DNA of 64,000 nt from Rhizobium sp. Root708 (GTDB taxonomy: Bacteria; Pseudomonadota; Alphaproteobacteria; Rhizobiales; Rhizobiaceae), in contig NZ_LMHV01000044.1 of NCBI RefSeq assembly GCF_001429725.1, positions 124,001 through 188,000 of the forward strand, given 5' to 3'. Positions 32,854-52,436 of the stretch are shown in pieces; position 1 is the first letter of the stretch, and each line of letters begins with the position of its first letter. The notes beneath the pieces were generated by a model. That model saw only the letters and a program-made list of their open reading frames with translations, made no database searches and was not told where the DNA came from. Made by a program: the position numbers and the translations under genes.

Positions 32854-34221
32854 TCAGTAATAAGGCTTGCGGTTTCGCCTTGGCTTAGAAGTTTTTTCTA
32901 GATTTGGTTTCGACTTAAGGCTGGCCATCGTCTCATTGACGATCGAGGAAATCAGCTGCAGATTCGAGATCACTTCTTCCGGTACCGGGTTATCGAATAT
33001 CTCGCTCGACGATGCTGGCTTTGCAGATTGCGTGCGACCAAATCGAAATGCTGCCGTGACCAACGGTAACAACTCGACCTCGATCTGGTTAGAGTGACCA
33101 ATCTTGCGGCCAAGGTCGTCCATTCCAAATCGGGAAAGAACCTTAAACTCTTCAAACCCGATATCTGCCTTGGGGGGCATGTCAAAGCTTTCGACATCGT
33201 ATATGTCGCGGCTAAGTCGACGCCCGATTCCGCTAAACGCACTCAGCAATGCGAGAGGGCTTTGCAAAGTCGCGAAAAATACGTACCAGAAAGCGGCTCC
33301 GGGACCGCTTCTTGTCAGGAGGATGTCGATGTGATCAAGGGAGTTCGGTGCCACTTGAGTTGCTAGAAAACCCCGCGCTGCGTCGCGGTCTTCTGTGCTC
33401 GCACTTAAATCCTGATCCTGCAAAGACTTCTGCAGCAAGGAGCCTCGCTCCTCCCGTGGAGCTTTTGAAATTCCTTCCAACGAAACATCAATGCCGACCT
33501 TCGCGGAAATGTCTCTCCAGGCTCGATCGAGTCCGACACCATCCGAACGGACAAGAGCCTCGGTGAGCTTCTGCACCACCGAAGTCGATTGCTTTTCGTG
33601 AAAGACGCTTGCCGCTACCCGAAGTACTGCGAGTGCTTGCTTCGATACGGACGGCACCAAATCACCCAGGACGCCACCGTTCAAAATTTCATATATATCG
33701 AGCCATTTGTCTGGAAGCGAAGGCAACTGGCTTTCCGGGGTTCCCGCTGCCAGCGCCCGCGCCCAAACATAGCTGAGCGTGCGACGGCAGGCGGCGGGGC
33801 TTGCCTGTCGCAATTTCATTATTCCATCTGAGTGGAGTTGGACTTCGACGAGTGACAGCATAGCCACCGCGTCGATGACGATGGAAGTAACTAAATGAGA
33901 ATCGCCGCGTGGTGCTTCAAGAAATGCTCTTGCGGCCTCGAATGGGACAAGCCGACAAAAAGCGGAGAAAGGGGAAACGGCGTTTGGATTGGCGTTAAGA
34001 GCAGCCAGCAAGTCGCTAATCTCGCCTTCGCGTGCAATGGCCAGATTTGGAAACGACATCTGATTCACGGGCTGTTGCCCCCAGACGACCGTCACACCGC
34101 CGGTTTCCTCTTTCAAAACCGCTTTCAAGTCTAAGCGTCTCGATCTCTCAATTACAGCGTCGGAGGTTCCTGAGGAAAAAACCTCCAGAAGCTCTCGTCT
34201 AGATAAGGACGCTGTCCACAT
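32854..34221 (-). CDS. uncharacterised third component of kinase-helicase operon
   Basis: A 455-residue soluble, mostly helical protein that I do not recognise. No signal peptide or membrane segments. The N-terminus (SRRELLEVFSSGTSDAVIER) looks like a short DNA- or partner-binding helix set. The middle is helical (SPAACRRTLSYVWARALAAG, SKQALAVLRVAASVFHEKQS). The C-terminal tail is basic (KPNLEKTSKPRRNRKPYY), suggesting nucleic-acid contact. It starts 4 bp after the helicase stop (ATG at 34221) and is the last gene in kinase-helicase-unknown, so it probably acts with them, perhaps as kinase substrate or as effector. The frame is also open to an ATG at 34260 overlapping the helicase. No catalytic motif was found. 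Confidence 0.8.
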   Translation of the reverse strand: MWTASLSRRELLEVFSSGTSDAVIERSRRLDLKAVLKEETGGVTVVWGQQPVNQMSFPNLAIAREGEISDLLAALNANPNAVSPFSAFCRLVPFEAARAFLEAPRGDSHLVTSIVIDAVAMLSLVEVQLHSDGIMKLRQASPAACRRTLSYVWARALAAGTPESQLPSLPDKWLDIYEILNGGVLGDLVPSVSKQALAVLRVAASVFHEKQSTSVVQKLTEALVRSDGVGLDRAWRDISAKVGIDVSLEGISKAPREERGSLLQKSLQDQDLSASTEDRDAARGFLATQVAPNSLDHIDILLTRSGPGAAFWYVFFATLQSPLALLSAFSGIGRRLSRDIYDVESFDMPPKADIGFEEFKVLSRFGMDDLGRKIGHSNQIEVELLPLVTAAFRFGRTQSAKPASSSEIFDNPVPEEVISNLQLISSIVNETMASLKSKPNLEKTSKPRRNRKPYY

Positions 34222-34225
34222 TGTC

Positions 34226-35374
34226 TCATTCCTTGCCAAAAATACGCGCCTTTGTAACAATCTTACTACGAGGAATTACAACACTGATAGCACCGTCGAG
34301 ATAAGCTGGTATTTTTTTATCGTAGTAAAAGCTCAGCGCGGTTTTGGCACGCGTCACGGCTGTATAAGCAAGTCTCTTCTGAACCCCGCCCATACGTGAG
34401 AGGTTATCGAGCCCGGCAATGTGCACGCATCGAAACTCGAGACCTTTTGCCGCCGACATTGAAGACAGCCAGATCGGAGCTTGCGGATCAAACTCATCAC
34501 TTTTGCAGATAGTCAGTTGGGACGCATAACCCAGGCCTGCGAGATGATCCGCGATGAGCAGAACGTCTTCATTCTTAGGGCAAAGAACACCGATCTTCTC
34601 CCCCGGATAAGCCACTAGCTGATCGGCGATCTGGTCTGCGATGGCTTGTGCCTGTTCCGCAATCGAAAGATCTGACTTGGAGGTGACCTTCACAGGATAT
34701 GCCAGTTCATCGTACTGCGCATTGGGCCTCAACGGAACGTGTGACGGATAGCCTGCGAGTATGGCGTCTGCGATACTGCAGATATCGCGACCGTTTCGAA
34801 AATGATAGTTAAGACCATGCTTTATGGTGGTTGCTGCCTCAAGCTCAGCAAAGCAGCTGTCAACCTCGAACACCTGTTGATGCTCATCAGCCGCCGCAAC
34901 CAGGACTTTTGTCAGCGCAGCGAATATCTTGATCTCTTGAGGCGTATAGTCCTGTGCCTCGTCCAGCAAAAGCGCATCAAATAGCTTCGCCACCTTACCG
35001 CTGTTGATCAATGCCTGAACGCCATCAGCTCTCAGCTGACGTGCTTGCTCCAAGTCCATGCCATTTGCATCGAAACCCTTACCGTTCTCACGCAGGATAT
35101 CGTTGAACAGCCTCGCATGAGTGGTGATCCTTTCGACAGGAAATTTATATTGTGCGCCGCCGATTTGAATGAAGCTTTTCAATAACGAACCGAAGACAAC
35201 GACTTGCAAATTCGGGGATGCACCTAACGCCAGATAATTCGCGCGGAGCAGCAGGAGATTGGTTTTGCCGCTACCTGGTGGGCCTTGAATCAAAATGCTT
35301 TCATCGGCGGCGATGTCGAGAATTGCCATTTGCTCGTCGATAAGATCAGTGTCGTCTTTCCACCAAGTGCTCAT
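34226..35374 (-). CDS. minimal superfamily 1 (UvrD/Rep-like) helicase
   Basis: A 382-residue SF1 helicase, far shorter than UvrD (about 720), which suggests that accessory 1B/2B domains are missing. Motif I GPPGSGKT is at residues 31-38, motif II LLLDEAQD around 136-142, motif III AAADEHQQVF, motif V SSMSAAKGLEFRCVHI, and motif VI AYTAVTRAK near 340. All ATPase motifs are intact. The ATG overlaps the kinase stop by four bases (35371-35374), and the next gene begins 4 bp after its stop, so the three are translated as a unit. Role: ATP-driven movement on nucleic acid or sensing of DNA ends; linked to a kinase this is unusual. Confidence 0.88.
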   Translation of the reverse strand: MSTWWKDDTDLIDEQMAILDIAADESILIQGPPGSGKTNLLLLRANYLALGASPNLQVVVFGSLLKSFIQIGGAQYKFPVERITTHARLFNDILRENGKGFDANGMDLEQARQLRADGVQALINSGKVAKLFDALLLDEAQDYTPQEIKIFAALTKVLVAAADEHQQVFEVDSCFAELEAATTIKHGLNYHFRNGRDICSIADAILAGYPSHVPLRPNAQYDELAYPVKVTSKSDLSIAEQAQAIADQIADQLVAYPGEKIGVLCPKNEDVLLIADHLAGLGYASQLTICKSDEFDPQAPIWLSSMSAAKGLEFRCVHIAGLDNLSRMGGVQKRLAYTAVTRAKTALSFYYDKKIPAYLDGAISVVIPRSKIVTKARIFGKE

Positions 35375-36786
35375 ATGCCGTTCTCTTTCGCTGATAGAAA
35401 GTGGATCGCATCGCCAGCAATCGACCCTTTCTCAATTTTGGTGTAATAGCTTTCTAATGTCTCAAGAAGCACAGCCTGAAGCAGTGAGCTGCTGTACAAA
35501 TCCTCTTCGGAACCTTTAAAAATCGTGCGCTGGTGGTTCAATTCGGAGGCTTCGATGGCCCTAGAAGAAAGCGCGTCGCTGTAACGGATAACGTACTGCG
35601 GAGCGCCTTCATTATCGTCCAGGTTCGAGATCACAAATTTTAGGGCGAGCGGAAACTCCATACCCTTAGCTTCATCCGCACTGAACGAAAGCATAATTTC
35701 ACGACTGTCGTTCTCAGCCTCAAAGATATCGGATCTCCGAAGAGGGAAATATGCAGCTTCCGCAAGGATAGAAGCCAAGCGTGTGTCGAGCTGCTGAGCG
35801 AACTGGTCCATCCTCTGCAAGAACAAGCGTCGTCTCTCCGCGTCTGCCAAGCTGGCCGTCGACATGTTGGCCCTTGCGAGCTTCTGCCGTTCCAGAATAG
35901 ACAGTTTGCGTGCGTCGGCGTCGACATTCTCCGGCTTGGCGGCGTCCTCGAAGTCACTCCAACTTAGCATTTCCAGACGAACTTCGGGGTTCTTGACTAA
36001 GGCACGGCGAGCTAAGAACATTAGGCGGGGCTCGCCGCCACTAATGTTAGGCGTCGTTCCTCGTACCGCATCAACCAGCATGGTAAAGGGTTCGCTCACG
36101 TCCGCGAAAATTGGCTTCTTCATCAGCAGATCGTGCAGCACCGCGCCCATCTGATAAAAGGTCACGGCCCGCCAACCCTCTATCGTATCTTTCTCCTTGC
36201 GATCCAAGAATTCCGGGGAGCTGTAGCGCAGGGTACCAATGAATGGCCGTTGATCTGCATCAGTCAGGTTGGAGACCCCTATAGGAAGTAGTACACCTAG
36301 ATCGAGGAGAATGGCGCGACTGAAGTCATCACTGATCGCGATGTTCTCTGGTTTGATATCCCGGTGAGCCATACCAAGGTCTTCGAGAAACCGAGCTGCG
36401 GAAGCTATCTGTGAGACAAGGGTTCCGTAATTCTCAGGCGGAATTGATGACCCAACCTGATGAAAGTTTTTGAAAGGCAGGCGTTCCATAACGACGAATA
36501 GGTGGCCGGTGGCAGTGCACTCTCCACCTTCCAATATCCTGACCAGATGAGGATGCCTTTTGCCAATTAGCTGTCGTTCGCGGTTGATACGCTCCAATTG
36601 AACAGCCCTCCCGTAGCGTTCGATTAGCTCGGGATGAAATATTTTTACGGCGCCTTCGACACCACCTCTAATACCTGAAAGGACAACGGCAGACTTGCCG
36701 TTTCCGAGAATGCCATCGATAGCCCAACCGCCAACGCTGTTCCCAATAAATCCTTCGGCGAAAATTTTCGCCTGTGCATTGTCCAT
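35371..36786 (-). CDS. Hanks-type serine/threonine protein kinase
   Basis: A 471-residue cytoplasmic kinase and first gene of a three-gene operon. The N-terminal 280 residues are a full kinase domain: glycine loop GILGNGKSAVV (25-35), ATP Lys in GAVKIF (Lys48), catalytic loop HRDIKPEN (141-148), DLG (162-164) in place of DFG, and SSPEF (189-193) in place of APE. No transmembrane segment or PASTA repeats follow, unlike typical PknB. The C-terminal 190 residues start with a helical/coiled part (ADARKLSILERQKLARANMS) and end in a domain of unknown type. Chain-start at 36786 has GGAAGTAATTCG upstream. Kinase-linked defence genes are known (for example Stk2), but this pairing is not one I recognise. 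Confidence 0.9.
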   Translation of the reverse strand: MDNAQAKIFAEGFIGNSVGGWAIDGILGNGKSAVVLSGIRGGVEGAVKIFHPELIERYGRAVQLERINRERQLIGKRHPHLVRILEGGECTATGHLFVVMERLPFKNFHQVGSSIPPENYGTLVSQIASAARFLEDLGMAHRDIKPENIAISDDFSRAILLDLGVLLPIGVSNLTDADQRPFIGTLRYSSPEFLDRKEKDTIEGWRAVTFYQMGAVLHDLLMKKPIFADVSEPFTMLVDAVRGTTPNISGGEPRLMFLARRALVKNPEVRLEMLSWSDFEDAAKPENVDADARKLSILERQKLARANMSTASLADAERRRLFLQRMDQFAQQLDTRLASILAEAAYFPLRRSDIFEAENDSREIMLSFSADEAKGMEFPLALKFVISNLDDNEGAPQYVIRYSDALSSRAIEASELNHQRTIFKGSEEDLYSSSLLQAVLLETLESYYTKIEKGSIAGDAIHFLSAKENGI

Positions 36787-37169
36787 CGAATTACTTCCCT
36801 ACCCACTGACGCACTAATCAGTACCTCACGATCTCAATTTGGCACTGTGCTTGTATCGAACAAATACAGGGTATCCGCAAGATTATCGCACGCCGCTTTA
36901 GTAAACTTAGTATCCGTTGCTAAATCCTCCTGGACGATCGTTGCCATGAAGAAGAATTATACCGGCTGTCTCCTGCAGCTGACGAAATCACTCAGATTGA
37001 ACGATGTGGACGAACTTAATGTTTGATACCGATCGGCGCCGAATATTGCTTTGTATTAGGAGAACGCTTAGCGACTTAACCGGCACCGCTTATCCAAGCA
37101 CGACTGGCAGCGAAGTGGGCTCGGAAACTTCTGTTTTACGTCCTCTCTTAAGCAATGGATAGCTTCGAG
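36787..37169. other. intergenic region, nothing recognised
   Basis: About 380 bp between the dGTPase-like gene end and the kinase start (both minus strand). It should contain the promoter of the kinase operon. No gene, repeat or clear operator was seen. Confidence 0.4.
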
Positions 37170-37197
37170 GCGAACGCGGCGGGGACGCCGCGTTCGC
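37170..37197 (-). terminator. strong hairpin after the dGTPase-like gene
   Basis: A perfect 12-bp stem (GCGAACGCGGCG at 37170-37181 pairing with CGCCGCGTTCGC at 37186-37197) with a GGGA loop lies 11 bp after the stop of the dGTPase-like gene. There is no T-run, so it may be a terminator of non-classical type or an mRNA 3'-end stabiliser. Confidence 0.55.
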
Positions 37198-37208
37198 AAG
37201 ATTTCGGA

Positions 37209-38567
37209 TTATAGTTTATCGAAGACGGACCCCATACGTGGGCTGAATAGGCGGTCGTAGGTCTTTAGTAGGAAGCTGTCAGTCATACCCGCAACATGAT
37301 CGCAAATTACCCGGGCACCGTCTTCTGCCCCAACAAAATCGCTATAAGCATCAACTGGCAAAAAAGCCCTTGGGTCAGATGCGAACGCTTCGAAGACAGA
37401 TACGACCATTTTCTGCCCCTTGAACTCTAGATGTTGAACCTCGGCACTCCTGATCACTTTGGTAACGATAAGCGCCTGGAGCGCATCCAGGAAAATGCGT
37501 TGCGGAGCGTGCAGTTTTGCGCGGTACCTGATCAGCGGCTCTTCGAAATCTTCAAGCTCAGTCATTTCGACATGCGTGACGAAATGATGAACGAGCCGGC
37601 CGATGCAGTGCTTCCGCTCTTTCCCGAGACCGAACAGAGCTCTCACGACAGACTCGTAGACGTCATTCGAGTTGGCGAGCGAGTACTTCTCATTCAACGA
37701 GTTCAAGAAAGGCGCGCACGCGCTTTCGTTAATAGCTTCCCGAAAATCGCGTTCAGACACCAAACCCATTGCTATCGCGTCTTCCAGATCGTGCACGCCA
37801 TAGGCAATGTCGTCGGCCACATCCATAATGCTGCAATCCAACGACTTATGAAGTGGTTTCCGATGCTTCGCCTTTCCTTTTGCATCAACAAGCTCGGGAT
37901 CAACACTAATGAATAGATCCCGGTCGTCGTCGCTAAGCGGTTCTAGGATCCAATCCACCACCTCGCGCTCGCTATCAAGATAACATTTCGGTGGTTTCGA
38001 GCTCTCTCGGTTGATTACCCTGATCGACTGGGGCGTAGCGTCAATTTTAGGCTTAATTTCTGGATTTGCAGCCTCTTTGAAGCTGACTGGATATTTCAGA
38101 ATCCCCAGAAGGGCCCGCCTCGTCAGATCCGCGCCATGCTTTTCCGAAAAATTCTCCAGTCTCGAGAGTATGCGTAGCGTATGGCCGTTGCCTTCGAAGC
38201 CACCGTTGTTACGCATGCAAAAATTTAGCGAGACCTCACCCCCGTGACCGAATGGTGGATGACCTAAGTCGTGAGCGAAACCGATAGCTTGGATTAGACT
38301 TGCAGGTGGCAGGAAGTCGTGCGCGTTGTGCGTCTTCGCCGCCGCCAATTGCCGCACGATGCTGGCGCCGATCTGAGCTACTTCCAAGGAGTGCGTCAGG
38401 CGCGTGCGATAAAAATCACTATCGCCGAGATTTAGTGTCTGGGTCTTCCCTTGAAGCCTTCGAAACGAGCCTGAATGCACAATCCTCGCGTAGTCGACAT
38501 CGAACGGTCCGCGTGCGTCTTCTGGCTGCGGTGTCCATTCGCTCTCTCTGAGCTGCCAATGATCCAT
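37209..38567 (-). CDS. dGTP triphosphohydrolase-like HD-domain protein
   Basis: Predicted to hydrolyse dGTP (or other dNTPs) to nucleoside and triphosphate. The 452-residue protein has the dGTPase N-terminus (RIVHSGSFRRLQGKTQT), HSLEVAQIG with metal His59, FAHDLGHPPFGHGGE with HD at 99-100, and DVADDIAYGVHDLEDA for the distal metal Asp. The length fits the Dgt family. The start at 38567 (MDHWQLRESEW) is chosen by family N-terminus. A plasmid copy beside restriction and kinase-helicase genes fits the known antiphage role of dGTPases, which starve phage of nucleotides. It sits about 420 bp upstream of the kinase operon on the same strand. Confidence 0.9.
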   Translation of the reverse strand: MDHWQLRESEWTPQPEDARGPFDVDYARIVHSGSFRRLQGKTQTLNLGDSDFYRTRLTHSLEVAQIGASIVRQLAAAKTHNAHDFLPPASLIQAIGFAHDLGHPPFGHGGEVSLNFCMRNNGGFEGNGHTLRILSRLENFSEKHGADLTRRALLGILKYPVSFKEAANPEIKPKIDATPQSIRVINRESSKPPKCYLDSEREVVDWILEPLSDDDRDLFISVDPELVDAKGKAKHRKPLHKSLDCSIMDVADDIAYGVHDLEDAIAMGLVSERDFREAINESACAPFLNSLNEKYSLANSNDVYESVVRALFGLGKERKHCIGRLVHHFVTHVEMTELEDFEEPLIRYRAKLHAPQRIFLDALQALIVTKVIRSAEVQHLEFKGQKMVVSVFEAFASDPRAFLPVDAYSDFVGAEDGARVICDHVAGMTDSFLLKTYDRLFSPRMGSVFDKL

Positions 38568-38794
38568 GTTCTCCCACCCGCCCCCAGCCTTTGATACAGC
38601 GACCACAATCCTAAGCATATACTTTCAACGACAGCTCGCTCAGCCAGAGACTGCGCTTTTCCAATTGCGTCAAGCCCAACAAGCTTAAAACGCTGTAGCT
38701 AGGGGAGAAAATATGTTCCGGTTTACAAATCCAAGGCTAGTTGACAGAATCACGGAAATGCCCATTATAGGGAAGCTAGAGATAGGAGACGGCT

Positions 38795-40577: not shown

Positions 40578-41711
40578 TCAGAGAATCCCCCACGCCCGAA
40601 ACCTCCCCCTCCCGGTCATCTCCCTCAACCCCAGCTCCAAAACAATCCGCCGCGCCGCCTGCGGCGTCACCTCGAGCGTCTTCGCCACCATTTTCGCCGA
40701 CACCAGCGGTTTCGCCATCACCAGCTCGACCAGTTCCGGCAGTTTTGACGACGTCCGCCGTCCTTCAAGTTTTCGGTCCATCATCGTCTTCGCCAGAGTC
40801 AGCCGGTCATGCTCTTTCATTCCGATCTCGGCGGCCGCCAAAAATCCGTGGGCGATGGCCAGCAGCCGGGTCTCCCGATCGCGATGCCGGCGCCGATCGA
40901 CCGGAATGGTTTTGAGGCCGAGGTTGATGGCGACAAGATGGGCGCCGGTGGTGACGCCGGCCTGGCGCAGGATGGAGGCGGCCAACAGTCGGCCGAGCCA
41001 CGGCGCGTGCTGCAGCACCAAAAGCTCGTTCCAGGCATCGAGGGCGACGATCGCCTGCAGCACGGCCGGCAGGTCTTCGGCCTGCCGCACCACGCCGCGC
41101 CATTCGTCGAGCCTAGAATCCTCGTCCCAGTCGAGATCATAGATCATCGGATTTTGTTCGGCAGCCCGGCCGGGCTTCCTGGCCTGCGCGATGGCGGCGT
41201 CCGAGCGGGCGAGCACTGCGTCGATGGCGGCATAGTCGATATCGGGAAACGTTTCGCCGCCGTCGGTATCATCATCCCCCTGCCCCTCCGGCTGGATCGC
41301 AATCGCGCGCTTGGCGGGCACGCTCTCCGCCTCGTCGCCATCGGCCGACATAATCTCAGATGTCTGCCGGAGCGTACGAACGCCGTCGGCCGACAACGCC
41401 CAGCCGGGCAGCTGCCCCGCAATTCGTCGGCGGGTCCGCAGCACGTCGCGGGCGATTGTCAATTCGTGGGTTGGCGTGCGAATATCGCGTGTTGCGTCAT
41501 GAAGGACCAAGTCCTCCAGATGGACGAGTTCGCCGTCGATCCACAGCGAGGCGCAGGCATCGGTGAAGTGCACGCGTTCGAGGAAGCCTTGGCCGACCGG
41601 CGAGCGGGCAAGGCGTTCATCGAGACGCGCCAGTTCGATACCCGCCCGAAAAGCCGGCTCCAAAAGCGCTGTCATGCTGATTTTCGCGAAATCGTAAGCC
41701 ATTGAAATCAT
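40578..41711 (-). CDS. RHE_PE00001-family (DUF1612 + HTH) plasmid protein
   Basis: A 377-residue protein of a family common on rhizobial plasmids. The N-terminus [18 protein letters not shown], the [16 protein letters not shown] segment, and [20 protein letters not shown] are typical of it. The DUF1612 part has [19 protein letters not shown], and the C-terminal 60 residues form a helix-turn-helix ([20 protein letters not shown]) that ends FRAWGIL. Function is not established; the HTH suggests DNA binding, and the position beside the centromere-like region suggests a link to plasmid maintenance. It may start at MAYDF, 9 bases inside. Confidence 0.82.
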
Positions 41712-42295
41712 GGTAAATGAATTCCTATAGGAACTCTATCTGAATATTCTGGTTCCTCACATGGTATGATTGTAGGTTGATGGGCTAACCATCGATAAGT
41801 ATCCCTTATCGATGGAAGTTGATCTGGAGTCGCAAATCAGCAATGTCGGTCGCCTTGGATAACCGGAAACGCCTGGTTTTCCGGCCTTTCGAGCAGATTT
41901 GGGCCAGGTTCGGCGGGACGGTCTCTGCTCTGAAGGCCACTTGCAGCAGCCGTCTCGTGCCGATGAGCTCAGAATTCCCCATGGTCTTTACGCATGAACC
42001 GGCTTTGATGGCCCTCCCCTCCTCCGATCTCCTTATTTTCAGGCATCTCCGCCGCAGATGGCCGCCAGAGCGCGCTGGACGCTGGTCACGAACCGATGCC
42101 CGTTCGACGTCGCTCTTTGAGTCTGGTGGGGCTGCATTTGCCCCTTAAAACGCGCTTCCAACTGTTCCTTTTTTAATACCTTTACATTCTGAACACACAG
42201 GCTTCCTTAAAGTCCACTCAAGCCATTCAGGCGCGCGGCGAGCTTGGCACATCGTATACGTAAACAGGGCAACCGGGCTCCAGTATTCCGACCGC

Positions 42296-42311
42296 CCTGT
42301 CAGCTGACGGA
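42296..42311. repeat. degenerate palindrome copy
   Basis: CCTGTCAGCTGACGGA matches the consensus at 12 of 16 positions; the core CAGCTG is intact. The outermost and weakest member. Confidence 0.3.
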
Positions 42312-43110
42312 ACTGCGAGCGACCGACCTGCCAGCACCGTGCTCACATGCGCCTTAACGGTCTCCACAATCGCACGTCCTGTCCAACCTTAGGCGATGTT
42401 AGTTTGCCGATCGTCGCGACCAACCTCGGCGCGCCTCCATGGGTAGCCTTCTTTCAAACCGCACTTACTTACGGATTGATCGAGGCGGTACCTCCTAGCA
42501 ATGGGGCCCACTTGGTCGCTTGCGTTTGTCAGAAATTCCTCACCCCGATGCTCTCCGGGGCCGTTGACTGGGAGACCTCACAAGCTGGCAATGGCGGTCA
42601 TTCGATTGGAATGTATGACAACATCCGCGCCTTCATTTTGGAAGGCGGAATCAAGCTCCGTCGGTTCAGCCAACATGCACCCCGTGTTCTAACCCCAATT
42701 GCACGGCTTACTCGATTGAGCGTCGCCGTTTGCGCAATCAAACCACCTTGGTGAACCATCCGATTCCTCTTCATGTTCAACGAACCAGCCTGTCCCGAGC
42801 GCTGACAAAGGTCGCCGCGAGCTCGCCTCGCCGCCTGCCCCTTGTTTCCCATTATCGGCTCACCGGTCCGCACCGACCCTGGGGTTATCAACCAAGCGCA
42901 GAGTTGTGGACTGGCCTCCCCCTCGCTTCCGCGCAAAGTCCCCAAGCGGGCGCCCCTGGAGACCCTCGCAGCTGACATCGCCTCCTTGCAGTACGCTCAG
43001 ACGTTGGCAGGCACAAGCTGCAGCTCGAGCATCGCGCTGATAAAGCCGGTCCTGTTATCTTCTTCGCGCACCCGTCGTCCGGCACTCTCGTGCGTCCTAG
43101 CCCGTCTGGC

Positions 43111-43126
43111 CTTGTCAGCTGACAAG
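43111..43126. repeat. centromere-like palindrome, perfect copy
   Basis: CTTGTCAGCTGACAAG, exact consensus; symmetry extends to 18 bp (43110-43127). Like the repABC parS pattern GTTN4GCN4AAC it keeps TT, central GC and AA, but the outer G/C pair is swapped. Confidence 0.75.
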
Positions 43127-43267
43127 GTTTAGCGTTGGTGCAACTTAGAAGGCAAAGAGACATCCATCAGTTCTGGCGGGGTCAGTGTTCCCAATGACGA
43201 GCAGTCGCGATCAGCGTACTCCAGCAGTCACAAAGCAAATGTCGCGCAGCTCCGGCGTGATAGAAAC

Positions 43268-43283
43268 CTTGTCAGCTGACAGG
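43268..43283. repeat. centromere-like palindrome
   Basis: CTTGTCAGCTGACAGG, 15 of 16. With flanks, 43265-43288 is a 24-bp palindrome with one mismatch pair. Confidence 0.7.
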
Positions 43284-43491
43284 GTTTCCATCACCGATCA
43301 GCTCCTAGTGAGCCACGCAGATTAGAACCCAACCCGACGCCATCGACGGCAACGCTCGGCGCTGTCCGTCGCGTCCGAAAACATGGCAGCTTACAAGCAT
43401 TAACGAAGAGCCCGATCAATTCACCCCTGTCGGACTCCCGAAGCACAAAATTGGTTTCGTTCGCCGTTTACGTCCACACCGCGACCTTCGA

Positions 43492-43507
43492 CTTGACAGC
43501 TGCCAAG
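43492..43507. repeat. centromere-like palindrome, variant
   Basis: CTTGACAGCTGCCAAG, 14 of 16. Core AGCT and both ends are kept. Confidence 0.6.
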
Positions 43508-43795
43508 GCTTGCCAAACATCGAGCCATCTAACTTCTGAATCCTTGGTCGCATCCCCGAAGACCGTCTTCAGGCGGACGAACCACTACAAACAAGAGCCG
43601 CCGGGCTCGCTCCCGCTCTAGTATTGCCTCTTCACGAACAAAAACAATCCGACGCCCGCGTAGCACGACAATCGCTTCTTTCGTCACCGGGCTAACAATC
43701 ATCGGAACAGACAGGAATGGGACACCGCCTCGTCCAGCTGAACCCTGCGCGCTGCTACTCACTCGCTGGCAGAAGCATCGTCGACCAGCCGAAAC

Positions 43796-43811
43796 CTTGG
43801 CAGCTGACAGG
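43796..43811. repeat. centromere-like palindrome, variant
   Basis: CTTGGCAGCTGACAGG, 14 of 16, flanked by AAAC upstream and GGTT downstream as in other copies. Confidence 0.6.
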
Positions 43812-44005
43812 GGTTGAAGTATCAAGCCAGGGTAATGGCAATGCAGATGCGCAAGGGCATAGTGCAATGCTAGTCCCTAACCCGAACGCACCGGTCGCCG
43901 CTGAGCGCGGACGAGATGCAAATTACATCCCGCAATTCGGTATTTCACTCACCGTCTGGCGCACTGGCTTCATGCTAGACCCCTTCTAGTGGAAGCTGTC
44001 TAAAC

Positions 44006-44021
44006 CTTGTCAACTGACAAG
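44006..44021. repeat. centromere-like palindrome
   Basis: CTTGTCAACTGACAAG, 15 of 16; the only change is in the central base pair. Preceded by AAAC. Confidence 0.7.
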
Positions 44022-44229
44022 GTCTTCACCCAAGACTTGGCGGGACGACAATTTAAACTGACTGAAGCACGCCTCATCTAGGGCCCGACTGCCGTGAAAA
44101 GCCTGCTGCACTTTATTTCGCAAAGGGCATACCATCATACTCGTTCCCCACGGTTCCCGGCGTCGGTTGGCTCCTTCTACTCCACCGCCGGAGCGGAACC
44201 CACAAGAATAACCTGGCGACTGGCGGCGA

Positions 44230-44245
44230 CCTATCAGCTGACAAA
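44230..44245. repeat. centromere-like palindrome, degenerate
   Basis: CCTATCAGCTGACAAA, 13 of 16; the core TCAGCTGACAA is intact. Confidence 0.5.
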
Positions 44246-44389
44246 TTTTCCTACGTTGGAGAGAAATGTCGACCTCGCCCGCCGCGGATCGCACCGCATT
44301 AACTGGGGTTCGTCACTCGGCAGAGTACATCCTGTCGGAATGAACCGGATCGAAGTCGCGGTCTGTTCGCTCAGAACACAGTCCGACAA

Positions 44390-44405
44390 CTTGTCAGATG
44401 ACAAC
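44390..44405. repeat. centromere-like palindrome, variant
   Basis: CTTGTCAGATGACAAC, 14 of 16. Confidence 0.6.
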
Positions 44406-44710
44406 GAACCTCTTGGGCGCCGCAGAACGGGCAAGGACCAAGAATGCGAGCATGCGAACGTTGCGCGTAGATATCACTGTCCGTCTAAGCAGGACCGAGC
44501 CGGCTCGGGCGGGGCAATGCTCCCGGGCGTCCTAGAATGGACGGGCGCCATAACGCTAACAATTGGCATACCTTGTTCCCTTGGACACATAGGCCGCAGG
44601 CGCCTTTGAATAGCCGTTCGCACTGCTTGCGACCAGTTCGTTGTTTACCTGCGCTGGCGACTTGAGCCCCGACTCTGTGCCTAAGCCGAAGCCAATCCCG
44701 GCTCGGGGCA

Positions 44711-44748
44711 AGGCAAGAAACCTTGTCAATTGACAAGGTTTCTTGCCT
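44711..44748. repeat. 38-bp perfect palindrome containing the motif
   Basis: The 16-mer CTTGTCAATTGACAAG at 44722-44737 has its centre changed from GC to AT. Symmetry continues without error to 44711 and 44748 (arm AGGCAAGAAACCTTGTCAA). It is the longest perfect inverted repeat found in the window. Confidence 0.85.
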
Positions 44749-45098
44749 ACAACACCGCGGTCCTCATGGCCATAAACGACTCAAATGGCCCCGACATCAC
44801 CCACAGTTATGGCAGCGAATTGCGCCAATGCGATCCGATCGACATATGCACCATCAAACGCCGGCGCCCGAAGCACCGCATCCTCAAGGCCGCGATTTCG
44901 AACGATTCAATGGATCGCCGCGAGATAGCTCTCCCTGGCACTGTTAAATAGCCTTCTACTCGGACCGCGTTTCTGCCAGCAGGGCGCGGTGCTCCTTCTA
45001 TCCATCCGATGGACGATCTCCGATACTGAGGGCTAACGCGCCACCGCGGACCGTGGGTTCACTCCCGCGCCCTCGGACGAGACGCCGAGCGAACGCCT

Positions 45099-45122
45099 GA
45101 TCCTTGTCAGCTGACAAGGATC
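45099..45122. repeat. centromere-like palindrome, perfect 24 bp
   Basis: The exact 16-bp consensus at 45103-45118, extended by GATC/GATC flanks to a 24-bp perfect palindrome. Confidence 0.75.
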
Positions 45123-45552
45123 TCAAATCAGGTCGATGGACGCTGATATCCTCCTGCTGCGAAACCGCTGTTGAAGAAAAACCAAAACGCCGCGCACGCC
45201 AGCTGCCCCGTATACTAACAGGACCGACGTCGAAGCGTGAGCAACAGCGCTGAGCGGGGCGAGGGGATCTCATCGCTTCGACAGCTATCACTGACGCAAT
45301 TTCGCAGCCATGCCTCCAGCCGAACCAGGATCATTCCCCTCGTAACTCACGAGCAGATAAACAAGGTTTGGCCCTCCGGCGCCGACGAACCGCGTGGGAC
45401 CCTGAGACCTGACAACGTTCGGCCGAGCAAAAGCACCTCGCGCGCTCGACGCAACGACGTCCACCGCAACTCTATTCCAACCGTGGAGCCGCCAAACGTC
45501 CTGTTACCTAAATCCTAGAGCAGGATCACTTAAATGGTAAGACGACTGAAAG

Positions 45553-45568
45553 CTTGTCAGCTGACAAG
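45553..45568. repeat. centromere-like palindrome, perfect copy
   Basis: CTTGTCAGCTGACAAG, exact consensus; the copy nearest to repC among the clear ones. Confidence 0.75.
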
Positions 45569-45919
45569 GTCAGGACGATCACTACGTCACAAGCACTTGC
45601 CGGTGACCCAACGCAACGATTGCTGTGCCCGGGTAGCATTTCTGCGCAATCGGCGTGCGTAGCTACCGACGCGCTGAACGCCCGCAAACTCGCGACGTCC
45701 TGAAACTGATCAGACTGCTGATACCCAACATGCGGTTCCAGCGTACACGGCCCCCGAATTATCGCGCATCGCAAAACTCAACGCGGAGAACGAACGCAAA
45801 CCGAGACCATTCATTCCTTAACAAGTCCTTAAGATCGACTCGCCTGGCGAAGACACATCAGAACACGCGCCCCGCTGCAATAAACCGTCCGTCTTCCCGG
45901 TTTCGGATAAGAGAGGAGA

Positions 45920-45941
45920 GGGGAGGGGAGGGGAGGGGAGG
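45920..45941 (+). repeat. GGGGA tandem repeat, G-quadruplex candidate
   Basis: Four runs of GGGG (45920-45923, 45925-45928, 45930-45933, 45935-45938) with single-A spacers, then GG. Such one-base loops favour a stable parallel G-quadruplex. It lies about 350 bp past the last clear palindrome, within non-coding DNA. Confidence 0.7.
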
Positions 45942-46864
45942 CGGTAACGCAAAACACGCGACTGCACGACAGTACCACTCCTTATTCGCTCCACGCTGAA
46001 CCGTGGTTAACCACCCGATGGACGAACGCAACCCATACGTTGCCATCGCCTGAGAATCCATGCTGATGTCAGTGAAGGCGCGAGGCGCAGCAACCGCCTC
46101 GCAGCACTGTTCGTATGTCCTCGGCCACACGCAACGCAATCGGGCGCGCTCGTCTCCAGCCCTGTTGAGAGTTCTTCGAAAACGTTCAGCCTAGCCCCGT
46201 TCATTTTCTCCGAATGGTAGCTGCAGAAGTCCTTGCTTGATGCCGGGACCGAGTCTCCGGGACGGACAACAGAATGCTCAACGTACGAACGTTCCAGAAG
46301 TTTGAACGGGAAATCACCACCGACCCTGAACTCCTCACGAGGATCTTCTCGTTTTACCCAAATGCAGCACCAAGCGGAGAGAATTCCCGCCTTCCTGAGG
46401 CTTCCGCGGCGCCGGCCGACAAAGCCCTCGCGCGTCGGCTTGACGAAAACGGCGATCCGGTCAGAAGCCTATGGATCCTGACCCCTCGAGGGACTTGTAG
46501 CCACGCGCAGAGAATCGGGCACATACCTAATGTATTCCGATCTCGACAAATGGAGGGCAGGGGCCAGCGAACTGAAGAGCAGAGTATCCATTCCCGTTCC
46601 CGAACAATGTCGATTGCGGCGATCGAAACCTCACTCAGAGATCAAGCCTCGAGCAGTAAAAGCTCATGCCGCAGGTCACGGGCCGCATCGCCGCCGCCTC
46701 GCCACCTATGCATTCAATGGCTATGAGGCACAAAAAGGGACCCAGCGTTGCGCGCCGCCATCAGCCACCATGTTCTGTTTCGATGAACGTTGGATCCGCT
46801 TCCGGAAACCCAACAGGCGCTAGACTTTGCCTTTTGTTCAACGGAGTCCGCGGCGATTACAGCG

Positions 46865-48276: not shown

Positions 48277-49491
48277 TCATCCGGCTCTTCGACCTTCGGC
48301 ACCATCTGCACGCAAGAGCGCCATCAACATCGGTCCGAGTGAGAACTCCCCTCTCCTTGCCCTTGCAGTCAGGTCGCGGAGATATCCGCCGGCCGAGTTG
48401 ATGTGTCCGCCACGCTCGAGAATGCAGCCAACAACGGCAGCCGCATTCTCCGGGCCCATCACGACGGAAGCTTCCTCGTAGGCCGACGGGCTGATCCCCA
48501 GCGTCGATTTCGCGACAATCGCCGCGGTCATCATTTCGCGCCAGTTCCCAATTACGCCAGCCGGACCGTAGGGGACAATCTCCGGGCAGGCACGCAGTAC
48601 CAACGAAAGCGGAAACGACTTTATCGGCTCGCTCTGCGGCTTCAGTTTCTGGCTCGACCTCGCCTCCTGCTCTTTTTCGGAGCTAGGTTCAAGTTCATTG
48701 CTGGATTCGGGATTTGAATTCTGTTTGTGCCGCTCAAAATGAGCAGCATTGGTGCTATTATTCTCGGAATCTTCCTGATTATCCAGCGCGTTGAGGATCT
48801 CATCCCTCAGCAAACCCATCTCATCGAGGATATCGGCAACCTGTGCCAACGATGGAGACTTCGGAATACGGCTCACGAGGTCAATGTAAACGTCTTCGAT
48901 CGCTTCCCAATTGCCTGCGGCGCCCTCCTCGATCGCGGCCGAAATGAGCTTGCGCACATCCCGCCGGCAGATCGTCAGGTCCTCCCTCGCTCGCCTTAGC
49001 GCAATCCGGTAGGCAACGACCTCCTGCGCCACGATCGCCAATTCCTCCGATCTCAACAACAGAGGAGAAAGATCGAAGCCGAAGGCACTTTCGATCGCGC
49101 CGGCCCTGTCTTTGCGGGCATAGCGCTTACCGTTAGCGCTGTCGCGCCTGACTATCAGGCCAGCATCGACAAGAAGTGCGATATGCCGGCGCAACGTCGC
49201 GCCCGCTATGCCGTGCGCACGAAGGCTCAGTTGTACGTTCGACGGAAAGACGACAAGTTCCTTGTCCTGTCGCAGCTCATTTTCGGGATGAAAACTCAAC
49301 AACGCATCCAGCACCGCCAGGCTACGGTCGAGCAGACCGAGCCGTTCGCGTGCTTCGGAAGCGTCCCGAAATACCTTCCACTTGTCGACGGTCTTGCCTT
49401 GCTTGATCTCGGCGGTCGCAACCTGCCGCTTTACCAAGGCAAGCTTCACCGGCCGCCGCCCAAAGGGCGTCGTCACATGTCCACCTTGCAT
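48277..49491 (-). CDS. repC: replication initiator RepC
   Basis: RepC initiates replication of repABC plasmids; the origin lies inside its own gene. The 404-residue product has the RepC N-terminal winged-helix domain (FRDASEARERLGLLDRSLAV, FHPENELRQDKELVVFPSN, GIAGATLRRHIALLVDAGLI). An acidic, low-complexity linker (residues about 235-275) follows, and then the C-terminal domain (SLVLRACPEIVPYGPAG). It is the third gene of the operon, separated from repB by 182 bp that contain the antisense RNA gene. The AT-rich stretch in the linker region (around 48.72-48.79 kb) could be the origin unwinding area. Confidence 0.95.
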   Translation of the reverse strand: MQGGHVTTPFGRRPVKLALVKRQVATAEIKQGKTVDKWKVFRDASEARERLGLLDRSLAVLDALLSFHPENELRQDKELVVFPSNVQLSLRAHGIAGATLRRHIALLVDAGLIVRRDSANGKRYARKDRAGAIESAFGFDLSPLLLRSEELAIVAQEVVAYRIALRRAREDLTICRRDVRKLISAAIEEGAAGNWEAIEDVYIDLVSRIPKSPSLAQVADILDEMGLLRDEILNALDNQEDSENNSTNAAHFERHKQNSNPESSNELEPSSEKEQEARSSQKLKPQSEPIKSFPLSLVLRACPEIVPYGPAGVIGNWREMMTAAIVAKSTLGISPSAYEEASVVMGPENAAAVVGCILERGGHINSAGGYLRDLTARARRGEFSLGPMLMALLRADGAEGRRAG

Positions 49492-49550
49492 CTTCTTCCA
49501 CCCTCAAAAGGCAAAAGAAATCCGCTCACCAAAAACGGTGCCAAAGACTC

Positions 49551-49579
49551 TTGACTGGGATTCGGGGAAATGCGATTCT
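49551..49579 (+). promoter_or_regulatory. promoter of the antisense RNA
   Basis: TTGACT (49551-49556) and GATTCT (49574-49579) are 17 bp apart, on the strand opposite to repABC, in the repB-repC gap. This is the position and strand of the ctRNA promoter in other repABC plasmids. Confidence 0.6.
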
Positions 49580-49585
49580 CTAGTT

Positions 49586-49640
49586 GTCACACATTGAGAG
49601 AGGCTTCCACGACGGCAACGTTTGGGGGCCTTTTTCTTTT
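49586..49640 (+). ncRNA. incompatibility antisense RNA (ctRNA, incA type)
   Basis: repABC plasmids make a roughly 55-nt RNA complementary to the repB-repC leader. It represses repC and determines incompatibility. Here, downstream of the promoter at 49551-49579, the plus strand has a stem AGGCTTCC (49601-49608) that pairs with GGGGGCCT (49624-49631) using two G-U pairs, followed by TTTTTCTTTT. That is the stem-loop plus intrinsic terminator expected of ctRNA. Transcription start near 49586 is estimated from promoter spacing, so the 5' end is approximate. Confidence 0.7.
49601..49640 (+). terminator. intrinsic terminator of the ctRNA
   Basis: An 8-bp stem with two G-U pairs (49601-49608 with 49624-49631), then a 10-base T-rich run ending at 49640. 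It also forms the single main hairpin of the RNA. Confidence 0.7.
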
Positions 49641-49673
49641 GCTGCTATTCCTTTCCGCGAAATCGGACGGCTA

Positions 49674-50717
49674 TCAGGCGCCGCTAGACCTATTATGGAC
49701 GAAGCGCTCAGCCAGTGCCGGCAGCTCCGCTTCGACGAATTTCAAAAACTCCGTTCCAAGAGCGCCACTCGCCTTGATCCGCACTTCCTTGGCCGAGGCA
49801 AGATATTCGCCGAGCGCCTGTCCGCTTCCAGTGGCAATCGGAGCCGGTTCAGGCTTGGGAGCCGACGACTTGATGGCCTGCAAGGCCACAAGGAAGCGCT
49901 GGTCCGACCCGCCTATGCCCTCAGTACTTGCAAGCGCCGCCCTCAGAGACGCAAGACGTTCGGCGTTGTCGGAAATCGCCTTTGCGAGATCGCCCCACCG
50001 AGGCCGACCGACCTTGGGCGCTCTTCCGATCGCTTCGATCACGTCACGCGGAATGGCGCGGTACACACCGCGCATCCGTGCAAGCTCCGCATCGTCGATC
50101 GAAAGGGCTGCCTTAATGGCATGTGTCTTGATCGACGCCTCGTCCAGACGGGATGCAAACAATGCGCGCTCGATCCATGTCAGATCCTGACGACTTGCGT
50201 TTTCAATGCCCTGAGCCAGGATGAGGTCGGCGTCCGATATCTCGATCTCGATGGCAAGCACCGCTCGACCGATCGCTGAAAGCGCTCGCCAGCGTCGGTG
50301 ACCGTAGACAATCTGGTAACGGTCCGGAGATGCTGGGTGCTTGCGAACCTGGACCGGGACCTTCTGGCCTTCCGCCTCGATCGAACGTTTGAACTGCGCA
50401 AATGCGGCGGCATCATCGTCGGGAAGTCGGTCAGGATAAGGAGACGGATCCATCAGGGATGGATCGATCTCGCGAACGGATAGTGTGCCGGCCTCCACCA
50501 TGGCCTTCAACCGATCGCGCTCCGTGCGGATATCGTCGATGGCGCGATGCGCAGCACCGATGACACCAGCGCCTACCCGTTTTACCGATGGAGGCGCAGG
50601 CGCTGCGACCGGCTGTTGCTCCTGCTCCTGCTCGTGCTCCGGCGCCTGACCACTCTCGAGTGACGCCGACAACAGTCCAAAGCTTGCAACGATAGACTTG
50701 CGGTTCGATTTGTTCAT
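49674..50717 (-). CDS. repB: partition protein RepB (ParB family)
   Basis: RepB binds the plasmid centromere (parS) and works with RepA to segregate copies; with RepA it also represses the operon. The 347-residue product has a ParB/Srx-type N-terminal domain (DRYQIVYGHRRWRALSAIGR, a form of the GERRxRA motif), a central HTH, and a C-terminal part. Its ATG overlaps the repA stop (ATGA, 50714-50717). The start MNKSNRKSIVASFG is preferred to the longer frame from 50729. Its likely target sites are the palindromes at 43-45.6 kb. Confidence 0.95.
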   Translation of the reverse strand: MNKSNRKSIVASFGLLSASLESGQAPEHEQEQEQQPVAAPAPPSVKRVGAGVIGAAHRAIDDIRTERDRLKAMVEAGTLSVREIDPSLMDPSPYPDRLPDDDAAAFAQFKRSIEAEGQKVPVQVRKHPASPDRYQIVYGHRRWRALSAIGRAVLAIEIEISDADLILAQGIENASRQDLTWIERALFASRLDEASIKTHAIKAALSIDDAELARMRGVYRAIPRDVIEAIGRAPKVGRPRWGDLAKAISDNAERLASLRAALASTEGIGGSDQRFLVALQAIKSSAPKPEPAPIATGSGQALGEYLASAKEVRIKASGALGTEFLKFVEAELPALAERFVHNRSSGA

Positions 50718-51937
50718 GCACGCCCCCAACTGTCGCTGAGCAATCGGATGATTGCCTCGTTGACGGCTTCAACCGCCTCGCGCGCGCGCTTGTGCGTATC
50801 GCGACCAATCTGGCCCATCTCAAGCTCATAGACCGAACGCTTGGCGAGCCCGGCCGCCTCCACGGCGGTGCTTTCGATCGCCGTCGGCAGGAGAACGTCA
50901 GAGCCGAAGAGATGCCGCAACATCGCAACGATCTGCGACTGCGGCGCGTCGTTCGGATCATGGCGGGTCACCAGATAGCGGATGAAGTCCTGGTCGAGCT
51001 GAGCGCCGTTTTCGTTAAGAACGCTGATTAGGTCACCCATCATCAGCAGAAACTGGCTCATCGACGCGACGTCCAGCATTGCTGGGTGGACGGTGATGAT
51101 CATGCTCGTCGCGGCGTAGATCGCGCTCAGAGTCAGGAACCCGAGCGATGGTGGCGTATCGAGAATGACGACGTCATAATCGTCTTCGACTTCCGCCAGA
51201 ACAAGCTTCAGGCGCTCGAAGAATATCGCTCCAGCCGTCGACTTCTGCGCAAGAACACGCGGCGTCTCATGTTCATATTCCATCACTTCGAGATTGCCGG
51301 GAATAAGGTCGATACCGTCGAAATAGGTTTTGCGGATAATGTCACGGATGGGGCGCCTCTCGTTATCGTCGTAACGCAAGGCTGCGTAGATCGTTTCGTT
51401 GGCGCCGATGTCGATTTCCGGCTGCGCGCCAAACATCGCCGAAAGTGAAGCCTGCGGATCGAGATCGAGCGCCAGCACGCGATAACCATGAAGCGCCAGA
51501 TGATGGGCAAGATGGACGCACGTCGTCGTCTTCGCGCTGCCGCCCTTGAAGTTGGCGATAGCAAGCACCTGAAGGTGTTCGCCCTCACGCCGGCGCGGCA
51601 GAAAGCGAAGAGCCTCTGCCGGCTTCTGCTTGGCGAAGAGCTCCCGCAGTTCGTTGATCTGCTCCAGAGTGTAGACGCGGTGATTGTTCTCAAGCCTGCT
51701 TGGGACCGGGCCCCTGCCTTCCGACGACATCAGCTTCAGCGTCGAGTCGGGAATCGAGGTCAGCTTGGACACTTCGTTGGTGAGAAACTGCCGCAGCGTC
51801 TTTTCGGACTTCGGCGGGTACATCCGCGTCCTGAGCTGCTGAAGTTGCCCGGAAAGAATTGTTGCATGGCGCAGGATCTTGCTGCCTGCATCCTCTTTCG
51901 TGGTAACGACTGTCTCTACTCGATTTGCTATCGCCAT
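50714..51937 (-). CDS. repA: partition ATPase RepA (ParA family)
   Basis: First gene of repABC. A 407-residue Walker-type ATPase that moves plasmid copies apart and acts with RepB as autorepressor. It has an N-terminal HTH part (LTSIPDSTLKLMSSEGRGPV), the deviant Walker A (NFKGGSAKTTTCVHLAHHLA near residue 130), LDLDPQASLSAMFG and VVILDTPPSLGFLTL. Length and motif order fit RepA of rhizobial plasmids. It overlaps repB by four bases. Its promoter should lie between 51938 and 52436. Confidence 0.95.
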   Translation of the reverse strand: MAIANRVETVVTTKEDAGSKILRHATILSGQLQQLRTRMYPPKSEKTLRQFLTNEVSKLTSIPDSTLKLMSSEGRGPVPSRLENNHRVYTLEQINELRELFAKQKPAEALRFLPRRREGEHLQVLAIANFKGGSAKTTTCVHLAHHLALHGYRVLALDLDPQASLSAMFGAQPEIDIGANETIYAALRYDDNERRPIRDIIRKTYFDGIDLIPGNLEVMEYEHETPRVLAQKSTAGAIFFERLKLVLAEVEDDYDVVILDTPPSLGFLTLSAIYAATSMIITVHPAMLDVASMSQFLLMMGDLISVLNENGAQLDQDFIRYLVTRHDPNDAPQSQIVAMLRHLFGSDVLLPTAIESTAVEAAGLAKRSVYELEMGQIGRDTHKRAREAVEAVNEAIIRLLSDSWGRA

Positions 51938-52436
51938 CTATCCCTCTTGGCGGCTCACCACCGGTTTGCCGGTCCCTGCCCGCCAAAGATAGAACACGAT
52001 TCTCCCCAACCGTCCAGAAGATTAGCCTTAACAAACAGTTAACACCCAGAAACCTGAAACATCGGAAACCGAGACACAGGAGTCGTTTCCTCGCGCTATA
52101 TCAATATGTTAGGTCTACCGAAGATCAAACCGGGTGCCAGAACGTTCCCCTGTTAATCCTACAAGGCACCCAAAGGCGCTAACGCCCTCTGCTTCAACGC
52201 GCACAGACAAATAACCCCGGTATCGGCATGCAATCACCTGCATCGATTCGCGGGTCAGCCCGATCATTGCTTCTTTAATCGGCGAGGTGACCCCGCAATT
52301 TGCCCCGAGCGAGACGCTGGACACTGTGGCAGGAAACATCCCGTTCAGTCCTGCAAAAAAGATACCTTGGAACAAGGACACGACCCCACCGTTTGAAATC
52401 TAGTTGCACTCAGGCAACGTGAGACGGAGTTAGATC
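51938..52436. other. intergenic region upstream of repA
   Basis: About 500 bp between divergent genes. It must carry the repABC promoter and the promoter of the small exported protein, but I could not assign boxes with confidence. I saw no copy of the 16-bp palindrome here. An 88-codon frame on the minus strand (52115-52381) has no recognisable domain. Confidence 0.4.

Follow-up and report, generated by a model that had tools for sequence, protein, structure and literature searches.

The locus

The stretch analysed here (the window) comprises 64,000 bases of Rhizobium sp. Root708, positions 124001–188000 of contig C44 (335,095 bases) in a genome of 6,292,121 bases. It contains a repABC operon and, 2.7–6.0 kb downstream of repC, an array of 16-bp palindromes resembling parS, the centromere of repABC plasmids; the array lies in approximately 5 kb without recognisable genes (the gap, 41.8–46.9 kb). 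The features of the region are collected in Table 1. Apart from RepB, no ParB_N protein was found on contig C44 (E up to 0.001), and an Rfam search returned nothing beyond known repABC elements.

Table 1 Palindromes, operon and associated elements, in window coordinates; mismatches are counted against the perfect palindrome of site 2
Feature	Coordinates	Strand	Remarks
parS-like site 1	42296..42311	none	CCTGTCAGCTGACGGA; 4 mismatches, outermost, degenerate
parS-like site 2	43111..43126	none	CTTGTCAGCTGACAAG; perfect
parS-like site 3	43268..43283	none	CTTGTCAGCTGACAGG; 1 mismatch
parS-like site 4	43382..43397	none	CATGGCAGCTTACAAG; 3 mismatches
parS-like site 5	43492..43507	none	CTTGACAGCTGCCAAG; 2 mismatches
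parS-like site 6	43796..43811	none	CTTGGCAGCTGACAGG; 2 mismatches
parS-like site 7	44006..44021	none	CTTGTCAACTGACAAG; 1 mismatch
parS-like site 8	44230..44245	none	CCTATCAGCTGACAAA; 3 mismatches
parS-like site 9	44390..44405	none	CTTGTCAGATGACAAC; 2 mismatches
parS-like site 10	44722..44737	none	CTTGTCAATTGACAAG; 2 mismatches
parS-like site 11	45103..45118	none	perfect
parS-like site 12	45553..45568	none	perfect; closest to repC (2.7 kb)
CtrA-like box	45818..45832	none	TTAACAAGTCCTTAA (TTAA-N7-TTAA); array edge toward repC, within 25 nt that are 96% identical to the G508 array edge
G-tract	45920..45941	+	GGGGAGGGGAGGGGAGGGGAGG; G508 has a similar tract in the same order, at its contig end
repC, replication initiator	48277..49491	-	88% identical to RepC of G508
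S-element (RF00490)	49489..49556	-	Rfam
ctRNA_p42d (RF00489), antisense RNA	49597..49642	+	Rfam
probable decayed parS at repB stop codon	49663..49678	-	CCTGATAGCCGTCCGA; 12 of 16 letters of CCTGACAGCTGTCAGG
repB, ParB-type centromere-binding protein	49674..50717	-	contains ParB_N and RepB domains; residue 208 (Met included) is Asp
repA, ParA-type partition ATPase	50714..51937	-	95% identical to RepA of G508
CtrA-like box	52028..52042	none	TTAACAAACAGTTAA; approximately 105 bp upstream of repA

The initial annotation had placed the array in DNA without genes, which was borne out: no Pfam match (E up to 0.1) was obtained for the eight tested open reading frames among those listed for 42.3–48.4 kb, and the best-frame codon score of the gap has a median of -0.037 versus 0.210 for repABC and 0.11–0.13 for other gene stretches, values that include the training genes (repABC among them). 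Gene stretches outside the training set scored 0.086 (L141) and 0.113 (L142), versus -0.050 for the gap of the sister array described below. None of the 300-base segments of the gap attains the codon score typical of genes, and no stop-free run in it exceeds 175 codons, a length also seen in shuffled sequence. On the other hand, 31 of its 49 segments score above the 95th percentile of mononucleotide shuffles, the median of which is -0.131, and this leaves room for old decayed coding DNA. In GC fraction (0.565–0.583 over 42–47 kb) the gap stays inside the range of the remaining window and so is not AT-rich; nor is GANTC clearly enriched, with 16 of the 102 copies of the window in 41.7–48.3 kb, where approximately 10 are expected by length.

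An array of twelve palindromes

Eleven sites with at most three mismatches to CTTGTCAGCTGACAAG lie at 43111–45568, whereas 100 dinucleotide shuffles gave a mean of 0.16 and a maximum of one; three of them are perfect (43111, 45103, 45553), two have one mismatch, four have two and two have three. A twelfth site, at 42296, has four mismatches, and the single further match of this quality in the window (29395) is located outside the array. A chance or low-complexity artefact has a vanishingly small probability and was rejected by the shuffle test, since none of the 100 shuffles reached 11. The approximately ten 16-bp palindromes put forward in the initial annotation are thus real; its tally of at least eight good copies and two weak ones was right as to their existence and slightly low in number, as 11 sites reach 13 of 16 letters. 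The scan of the whole plasmid with up to two mismatches that it had proposed was extended to the entire genome, and all nine sites of this quality (9/9) fall inside the array.

The array palindromes contain the TT-N4-GC-N4-AA core of repABC parS, and the perfect copies read CTTGTCAGCTGACAAG. In the published consensus, GTTNNCNGCNGNNAAC, the outer bases are G...C; in the array the first base is C in all 12 sites, so that the exchange of the outer bases to C/G had been correctly noticed. No palindromic GTTN4GCN4AAC is found in the 64-kb window, the sole letter match (44738) pairing at four of eight positions. The sequence CCTGTCAGCTGACAGG, 93 bp after repC of Sinorhizobium meliloti pSmeLPU88b, expels the parental replicon and is thus an incompatibility determinant (PMC10194956); it is therefore a working parS despite departing from the consensus. 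Because this working site also deviates, the outer letter is not decisive for function, and the assignment of the array has to rest on other features.

In other alphaproteobacterial loci the palindrome is mostly preceded by AAAC and followed by GTTT (47 distinct exact sites and 62 distinct CCTGACAGCTGTCAGG sites), so that the full site is a palindrome of approximately 24 bp (AAACCTTGTCAGCTGACAAGGTTT). All repeat families of the array with more than three copies are centred on the palindrome; the remaining direct repeats have two to three copies of 15–23 nt. As repeats outside the palindrome are short and few, the array has not grown by the copying of a long segment, and an origin by duplication of a longer segment is ruled out. 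Site 10 lies within a perfect 38-bp palindrome (44711–44748, two 19-nt arms), which exceeds the other sites in length.

The palindrome beyond this plasmid

A scan of a collection of 84,980 species for exact CTTGTCAGCTGACAAG gave 97 stretches; approximately 60 are expected by chance (257 billion bases divided by 4^16, assuming even composition). In 31 of the 97 a RepA, RepB or RepC homologue is present within the stretch of up to 8 kb; typically, such a stretch has one site in the repB end and a second, approximately 265–290 bp away, between repB and repC. Eight more stretches (Agrobacterium, Rhizobium, other Rhizobiales) have at least two sites and no rep genes inside the stretch, and the remaining ones are mostly single sites across many phyla. 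Among 12 RepB relatives from PLSDB (61.7–68.3% identity), eight are accompanied by CCTGACAGCTGTCAGG, one by CCTGTCAGCTGACAGG, one by both and one by a CTTGTCAGCTGACAAG pair, and one has no site within 20 kb.

S. meliloti ml59 pMl3 (L156), with a D-type RepB (see below), has CCTGACAGCTGTCAGG at the repB stop (2325) and two copies of CCTGTCAGCTGACAGG after repC (3810, 3999). Two perfect CTTGTCAGCTGACAAG copies with AAC...GTTT flanks also occur on a 2.17-Mb replicon (G367:C2:746255-746402; L024), 345 kb from its repB, the product of which is only 31% identical and near which GTTAGCCGCGGCTAAC is found; this pair could be the relic of a fused plasmid, or else a second partition system.

A literature search by CTTGTCAGCTGACAAG, CCTGACAGCTGTCAGG and their cores gave PMC10194956 as the sole parS paper, and no printed report of a repABC array of such size was found; most subscription papers lie outside the coverage of these searches.

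Site letters and RepB specificity

Site labels placed on a tree of 89 RepB proteins change nine times, the minimum for ten labels, versus a mean of 43.4 in shuffles; the labels were set by hand and mix site letters with place, and those of two genomes introduced below, G508 and G521, were taken from contigs other than their repABC. Omitted from this tree were L159 (a protein identical to that of the window), six distant RepB (L177, L178, L180, L183, L184, L186) and rows with inside stops, with fewer than 280 aligned residues or identical to another row. A second tree, from which rows outside the clade (L164–L176) were additionally omitted, gave three changes between T and A at site position 5, versus approximately 29 in shuffles, so that only three independent events are represented.

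The letter at position 5 is matched by RepB residue 207 (P0001 numbering; 208 with Met), which lies within the helix-turn-helix stretch as aligned with Noc, at what we take to be the start of the recognition helix. It is D in 38 of 38 T rows, which include L156 although that plasmid carries both forms, and E in 49 of 50 A rows (alanine in the other one), which include L218, L226, L228 and L230 with mixed sites that have C in one half-site. Nine plasmids fetched afterwards comprised four with D and T, four with E and A, and one with alanine and site letter A. A. salinitolerans pDG3-1g has a RepB with D and no site within 20 kb of repB; the T form was predicted from the D, and a pair of this form turned up 18.8 kb beyond repC, where no gene is listed in a gap of 0.8 kb. 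As a rule for all repABC replicons the correspondence was discarded: in RepB proteins from outside the clade, D is frequent with any type of site, occurring with GTTGAC in pAMI4 (GTTGACAGCTGTCAAC), GTTTAC in L181 and GTTGGG in L174, and N occurs with TTTGTC in L185 and L187. A second RepB homologue in the genome of the window, on contig C6, has GTTGACGGCAGTCAAC nearby (palindromic at seven of eight positions). Inside the clade, D/E at residue 207 is a candidate specificity switch for parS position 5.

Since the CTTGTCAGCTGACAAG type recurs at repB and repC elsewhere, the site letters track the RepB tree and CCTGTCAGCTGACAGG acts as parS, the outer C...G is a feature of a RepB clade separate from the GTT...AAC class. 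The suggestion that the outer-base swap marks a RepB class holds in that the swap goes with a RepB clade; it does not hold as a peculiarity of this plasmid, the C/G form being widespread.

The same data bear on whether the palindromes might be operators of a transcription regulator, for example of the neighbouring RHE_PE00001-family protein (DUF1612 and helix-turn-helix; 40578–41711), whose helix-turn-helix gene adjoins the array and has homologues in many of the fetched relatives. No such homologue (E 1e-10) is present in 28 of the 31 rep-bearing exact-site stretches (up to 8 kb), and the site letters change together with RepB; operators were rejected as there are no recognisable genes between the sites, and we regard them as very improbable.

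Number and position of sites in relatives

Of 148 genomes of the genus, 47 (that of the window included) encode a RepB of the clade at E 1e-110 or better; with Ensifer PDNC004 this makes 48 loci, and the census covers one genus plus selected plasmids. In 46 of the 48 the sequence covered contains the palindrome xxTGnCAGCTGnCAxx, or a near form, at the repB stop, downstream of repC or in both places; in the other two, G508 and G521, the sites are on other contigs. Sites downstream of repC were counted when within two mismatches of any of six clade site types, in the 39 loci with at least 9 kb of sequence there, the window among them; the repABC contigs of G508 and G521 end too near and are outside this count. 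One such site was found in 15 loci, two in 20 and three in 3, that is, one to three in 38 of 38 relatives; the window has ten by this rule (12 by the looser mismatch rule), in keeping with the earlier view that a many-copy array is unusual. Arrays of at least eight sites were found only twice, in the window and in G508.

The position, in turn, is common. Many relatives have a site pair 1.6–7.6 kb downstream of repC, and for the pairs or triple of PLSDB relatives the distances are 2.4, 4.2, 8.2, 11.7 and 18.8 kb. Agrobacterium plasmids carry parS groups 8–19 kb downstream of repC (L241, 15345–15654; L242, 11940–12064; L255, 4905–5036), in gaps without listed gene and of a letter type invisible to the canonical consensus. 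The initial annotation had called the array distant; the 2.7–6 kb to repC are real, and the position is not special, site pairs of many relatives being placed likewise. In this RepB clade remote sites are common and an array of eight or more is rare.

The site at the repB stop is kept in 32 of the 38 relatives and lacking in the window, where CCTGATAGCCGTCCGA is probably its decayed copy: it keeps the register to the repB end of four annotated relatives (L147–L150), starting four bases before the last base of repB, and the fair figure for its significance is approximately 0.004, as 46 offsets were searched and the control (0.00135) used 16. A canonical parS next to repABC, which the initial annotation had named as evidence that would speak against a centromere in the array, was looked for in the window and none remains there.

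A sister array

The nearest RepB is that of isolate AFS038290 (G508), with 82% identity in RepB, 95% in RepA and 88% in RepC. This genome has eight sites with at most two mismatches at 16018–19037 of contig C24 (UBTY01000058.1), 360 bp from the contig end and within approximately 3 kb of low codon score; its repABC contig has no site within the 19.9 kb examined. In the RepB tree G508 and the window are sister rows with full support, and the adjacent G521 has a site pair on another contig. The array is hence not unique to the plasmid of the window.

While the repABC operons of both are 84% identical over 3665 bp, the two gaps match only at the palindromes and at an edge element, all other matches being at E 0.6 or worse. 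The edge element consists of a 25-nt stretch with CTTAACAAGTCCTTAAG (96% identical) followed by a G-tract, in the same order in both arrays as far as the G508 contig extends. Spacers that cannot be aligned next to palindromes that are kept suggest that the spacers turned over and the sites stayed, as selection on the sites predicts.

It is possible, if the less favoured view, that the centromere is redundant, that is, one to three palindromes work and the rest are neutral or decaying copies from site turnover; the 38 relatives manage with one to three downstream sites, and sites 1, 4 and 8 are degenerate. Nine sites with at most two mismatches persist, however, amid spacers that cannot be aligned with those of the sister array, G508 keeps eight, and no longer duplicated segment underlies the copies; the retention of many sites in both arrays despite spacer turnover argues that many copies are held by selection.

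The array as a probable centromere

We interpret the array as the candidate RepB-binding centromere (parS) of this repABC plasmid, with a probability of roughly 0.9. The extended centromere recognised by its own RepB that the initial annotation had proposed gains support from the palindrome being the repB-associated site across the RepB clade, from the lack of a canonical parS beside repABC in the window and from RepB being the sole ParB_N protein found on the contig. RepB dimers would bind the palindromes in their full form of approximately 24 bp, load at about a dozen entry points and spread over approximately 3 kb of gene-free DNA; RepA would then move the RepB-DNA complex so that each daughter cell gets a copy. 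Most relatives have a repB-stop site plus one or two sites beyond repC; in the lineage of the window the repB-end site has probably decayed, and the downstream sites would have come to lie farther from repC and to be many. Since the site letters belong to the RepB clade, co-resident GTT...AAC repABC plasmids should escape capture.

Several points weigh against this interpretation. The exact 16-mer recurs in Streptococcus (16 of the 97 stretches, above chance), so that letters alone are insufficient proof of parS; these stretches (loci such as L042, L050, L053, L055, L072, L078 and L105) include seven from S. suis, and the recurrence perhaps reflects one conserved gene or an unrelated operator. 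Three of the 12 sites, at three to four mismatches, may no longer function. The residue rule is based on three switches and does not hold beyond the clade, and the array and the repABC operon of G508, being on different contigs, are presumed to be linked. Finally, extra parS sites need not be an advantage: according to PMC9040568, small test plasmids (pAMI4; pSymA) became less stable when given more of them.

The array might instead serve mainly in replication or incompatibility control, with titration of RepB or pairing of plasmids lowering the copy number or excluding relatives. It lies 2.7 kb from repC, the seat of oriV in the repABC family; on the other hand, the remote locus of pAMI4 is needed for RepB foci and stable inheritance (both from PMC9040568). 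The roles in replication control and in segregation are mutually compatible, and the former as the main one seems to us improbable.

A CtrA-like element at the array edge

TTAA-N7-TTAA, which we take to be a form of the CtrA box, occurs exactly twice in the 64 kb, at 45818 and 52028; the full form known from Caulobacter, TTAAN7TTAAC, is matched at 52028 only. Of the 18 census loci whose sequence extends far enough upstream of repA, 10 have an exact TTAA-N7-TTAA there, and it is found at -104 to -106 of repA in 14 of the 48 loci, shorter stretches included. The 642,908 bases available downstream of repC from 45 loci contain a single copy, that of the window, and it is present in none of the other census loci, so that a link with CtrA there is limited to the two arrays. 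Judged by its letters, TTAACAAGTCCTTAA is a putative CtrA site. According to PMC9040568, pAMI4 has CTAAN7TTAAC before repABC, one letter off the Caulobacter consensus.

A more speculative extension, which we hold to be rather unlikely, is a regional plasmid centromere in which about a dozen RepB entry sites would form one large partition complex whose assembly or release is timed by CtrA, the CtrA box and G-tract at the repC-side edge bounding or gating the complex and the matching box lying before repA. If true, this would be a centromere with a built-in cell-cycle switch, at the top of a series (1, 2, 3, at least 8, 12 sites) in which the number of sites evolves.

Flanking sequences

When 42000–46800 was compared with PLSDB, only a stretch at the left end matched, among the 30 records listed of 51. 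This stretch (42000–42173) precedes the RHE_PE00001-family gene and has matches in 51 plasmids from Rhizobium, Agrobacterium and Neorhizobium, with 71–96% identity in the 30 matches listed; in A. fabrum pAt2788b it is flanked by the RHE_PE00001-family gene on one side and by a gene for a recombinase on the other, so that it may serve in recombination or regulation. Left of the array (32854–38618) there are minus-strand genes resembling, by reading of their translations, a helicase, a protein kinase and a dGTPase-like HD protein; the block might be a defence island.

Significance and comparison with known systems

A search with the canonical consensus misses a class of repABC centromeres, the C...G form. 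The members of the RepB clade examined belong to Hyphomicrobiales and Rhodobacterales, and many of their plasmids keep sites kilobases beyond repC. The link of one RepB residue with one parS base, with three switches, offers a ready mutational test of how the specificity of a ParB-type protein may change, and it bears on the coexistence of plasmids of the same family; relatives with 1–12 sites and, in the census, RepA proteins 89–95% identical to that of the window provide a natural experiment on many-site centromeres.

The single site of pSmeLPU88b, CCTGTCAGCTGACAGG, shares the 12-bp core and the outer C...G with the sites of the array, of which there are 12 here. Six parS sites upstream of repA have been described for pSymA of S. 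meliloti 1021 (cited in PMC9040568); the first of them stabilised a test plasmid and addition of the other five destabilised it. A high number of parS in a repABC replicon is common to both, and the difference lies in the six copies and their place upstream of repA. The array of G508 is closest, with eight sites of the same type, approximately 3 kb of low codon score and the shared CtrA-like element and G-tract; it differs in spacers that cannot be aligned, in its place at a contig end and in having repABC on another contig.

In Paracoccus aminophilus pAMI4, RepB binds to the 3parS locus, without which stable inheritance and RepB foci are lost, and, like the array, the locus has several parS in a long non-coding region downstream of repC, off the operon; it consists of three identical canonical sites 11.5 kb away, is AT-rich and is accompanied by an extra parS between repB and repC (all from PMC9040568). 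The window, in contrast, has 12 diverged C...G sites in approximately 3.3 kb of non-coding DNA, 2.7–6 kb away and with a GC content like that of the remaining window, and its repB site is decayed; the array thus shares with 3parS the multiple sites in long non-coding DNA off the operon, and not the AT-richness. Chromosome 2 of A. vitis, too, has no parS in its repABC operon and multiple sites in a remote non-coding region; there, two sites are 30–90 kb away in AT-rich DNA, plus a degenerate site 15–20 kb away. Remote non-coding parS loci are hence already known from pAMI4 and from A. vitis chromosome 2, and the array stands out by how many sites it has and by an edge element that G508 has too.

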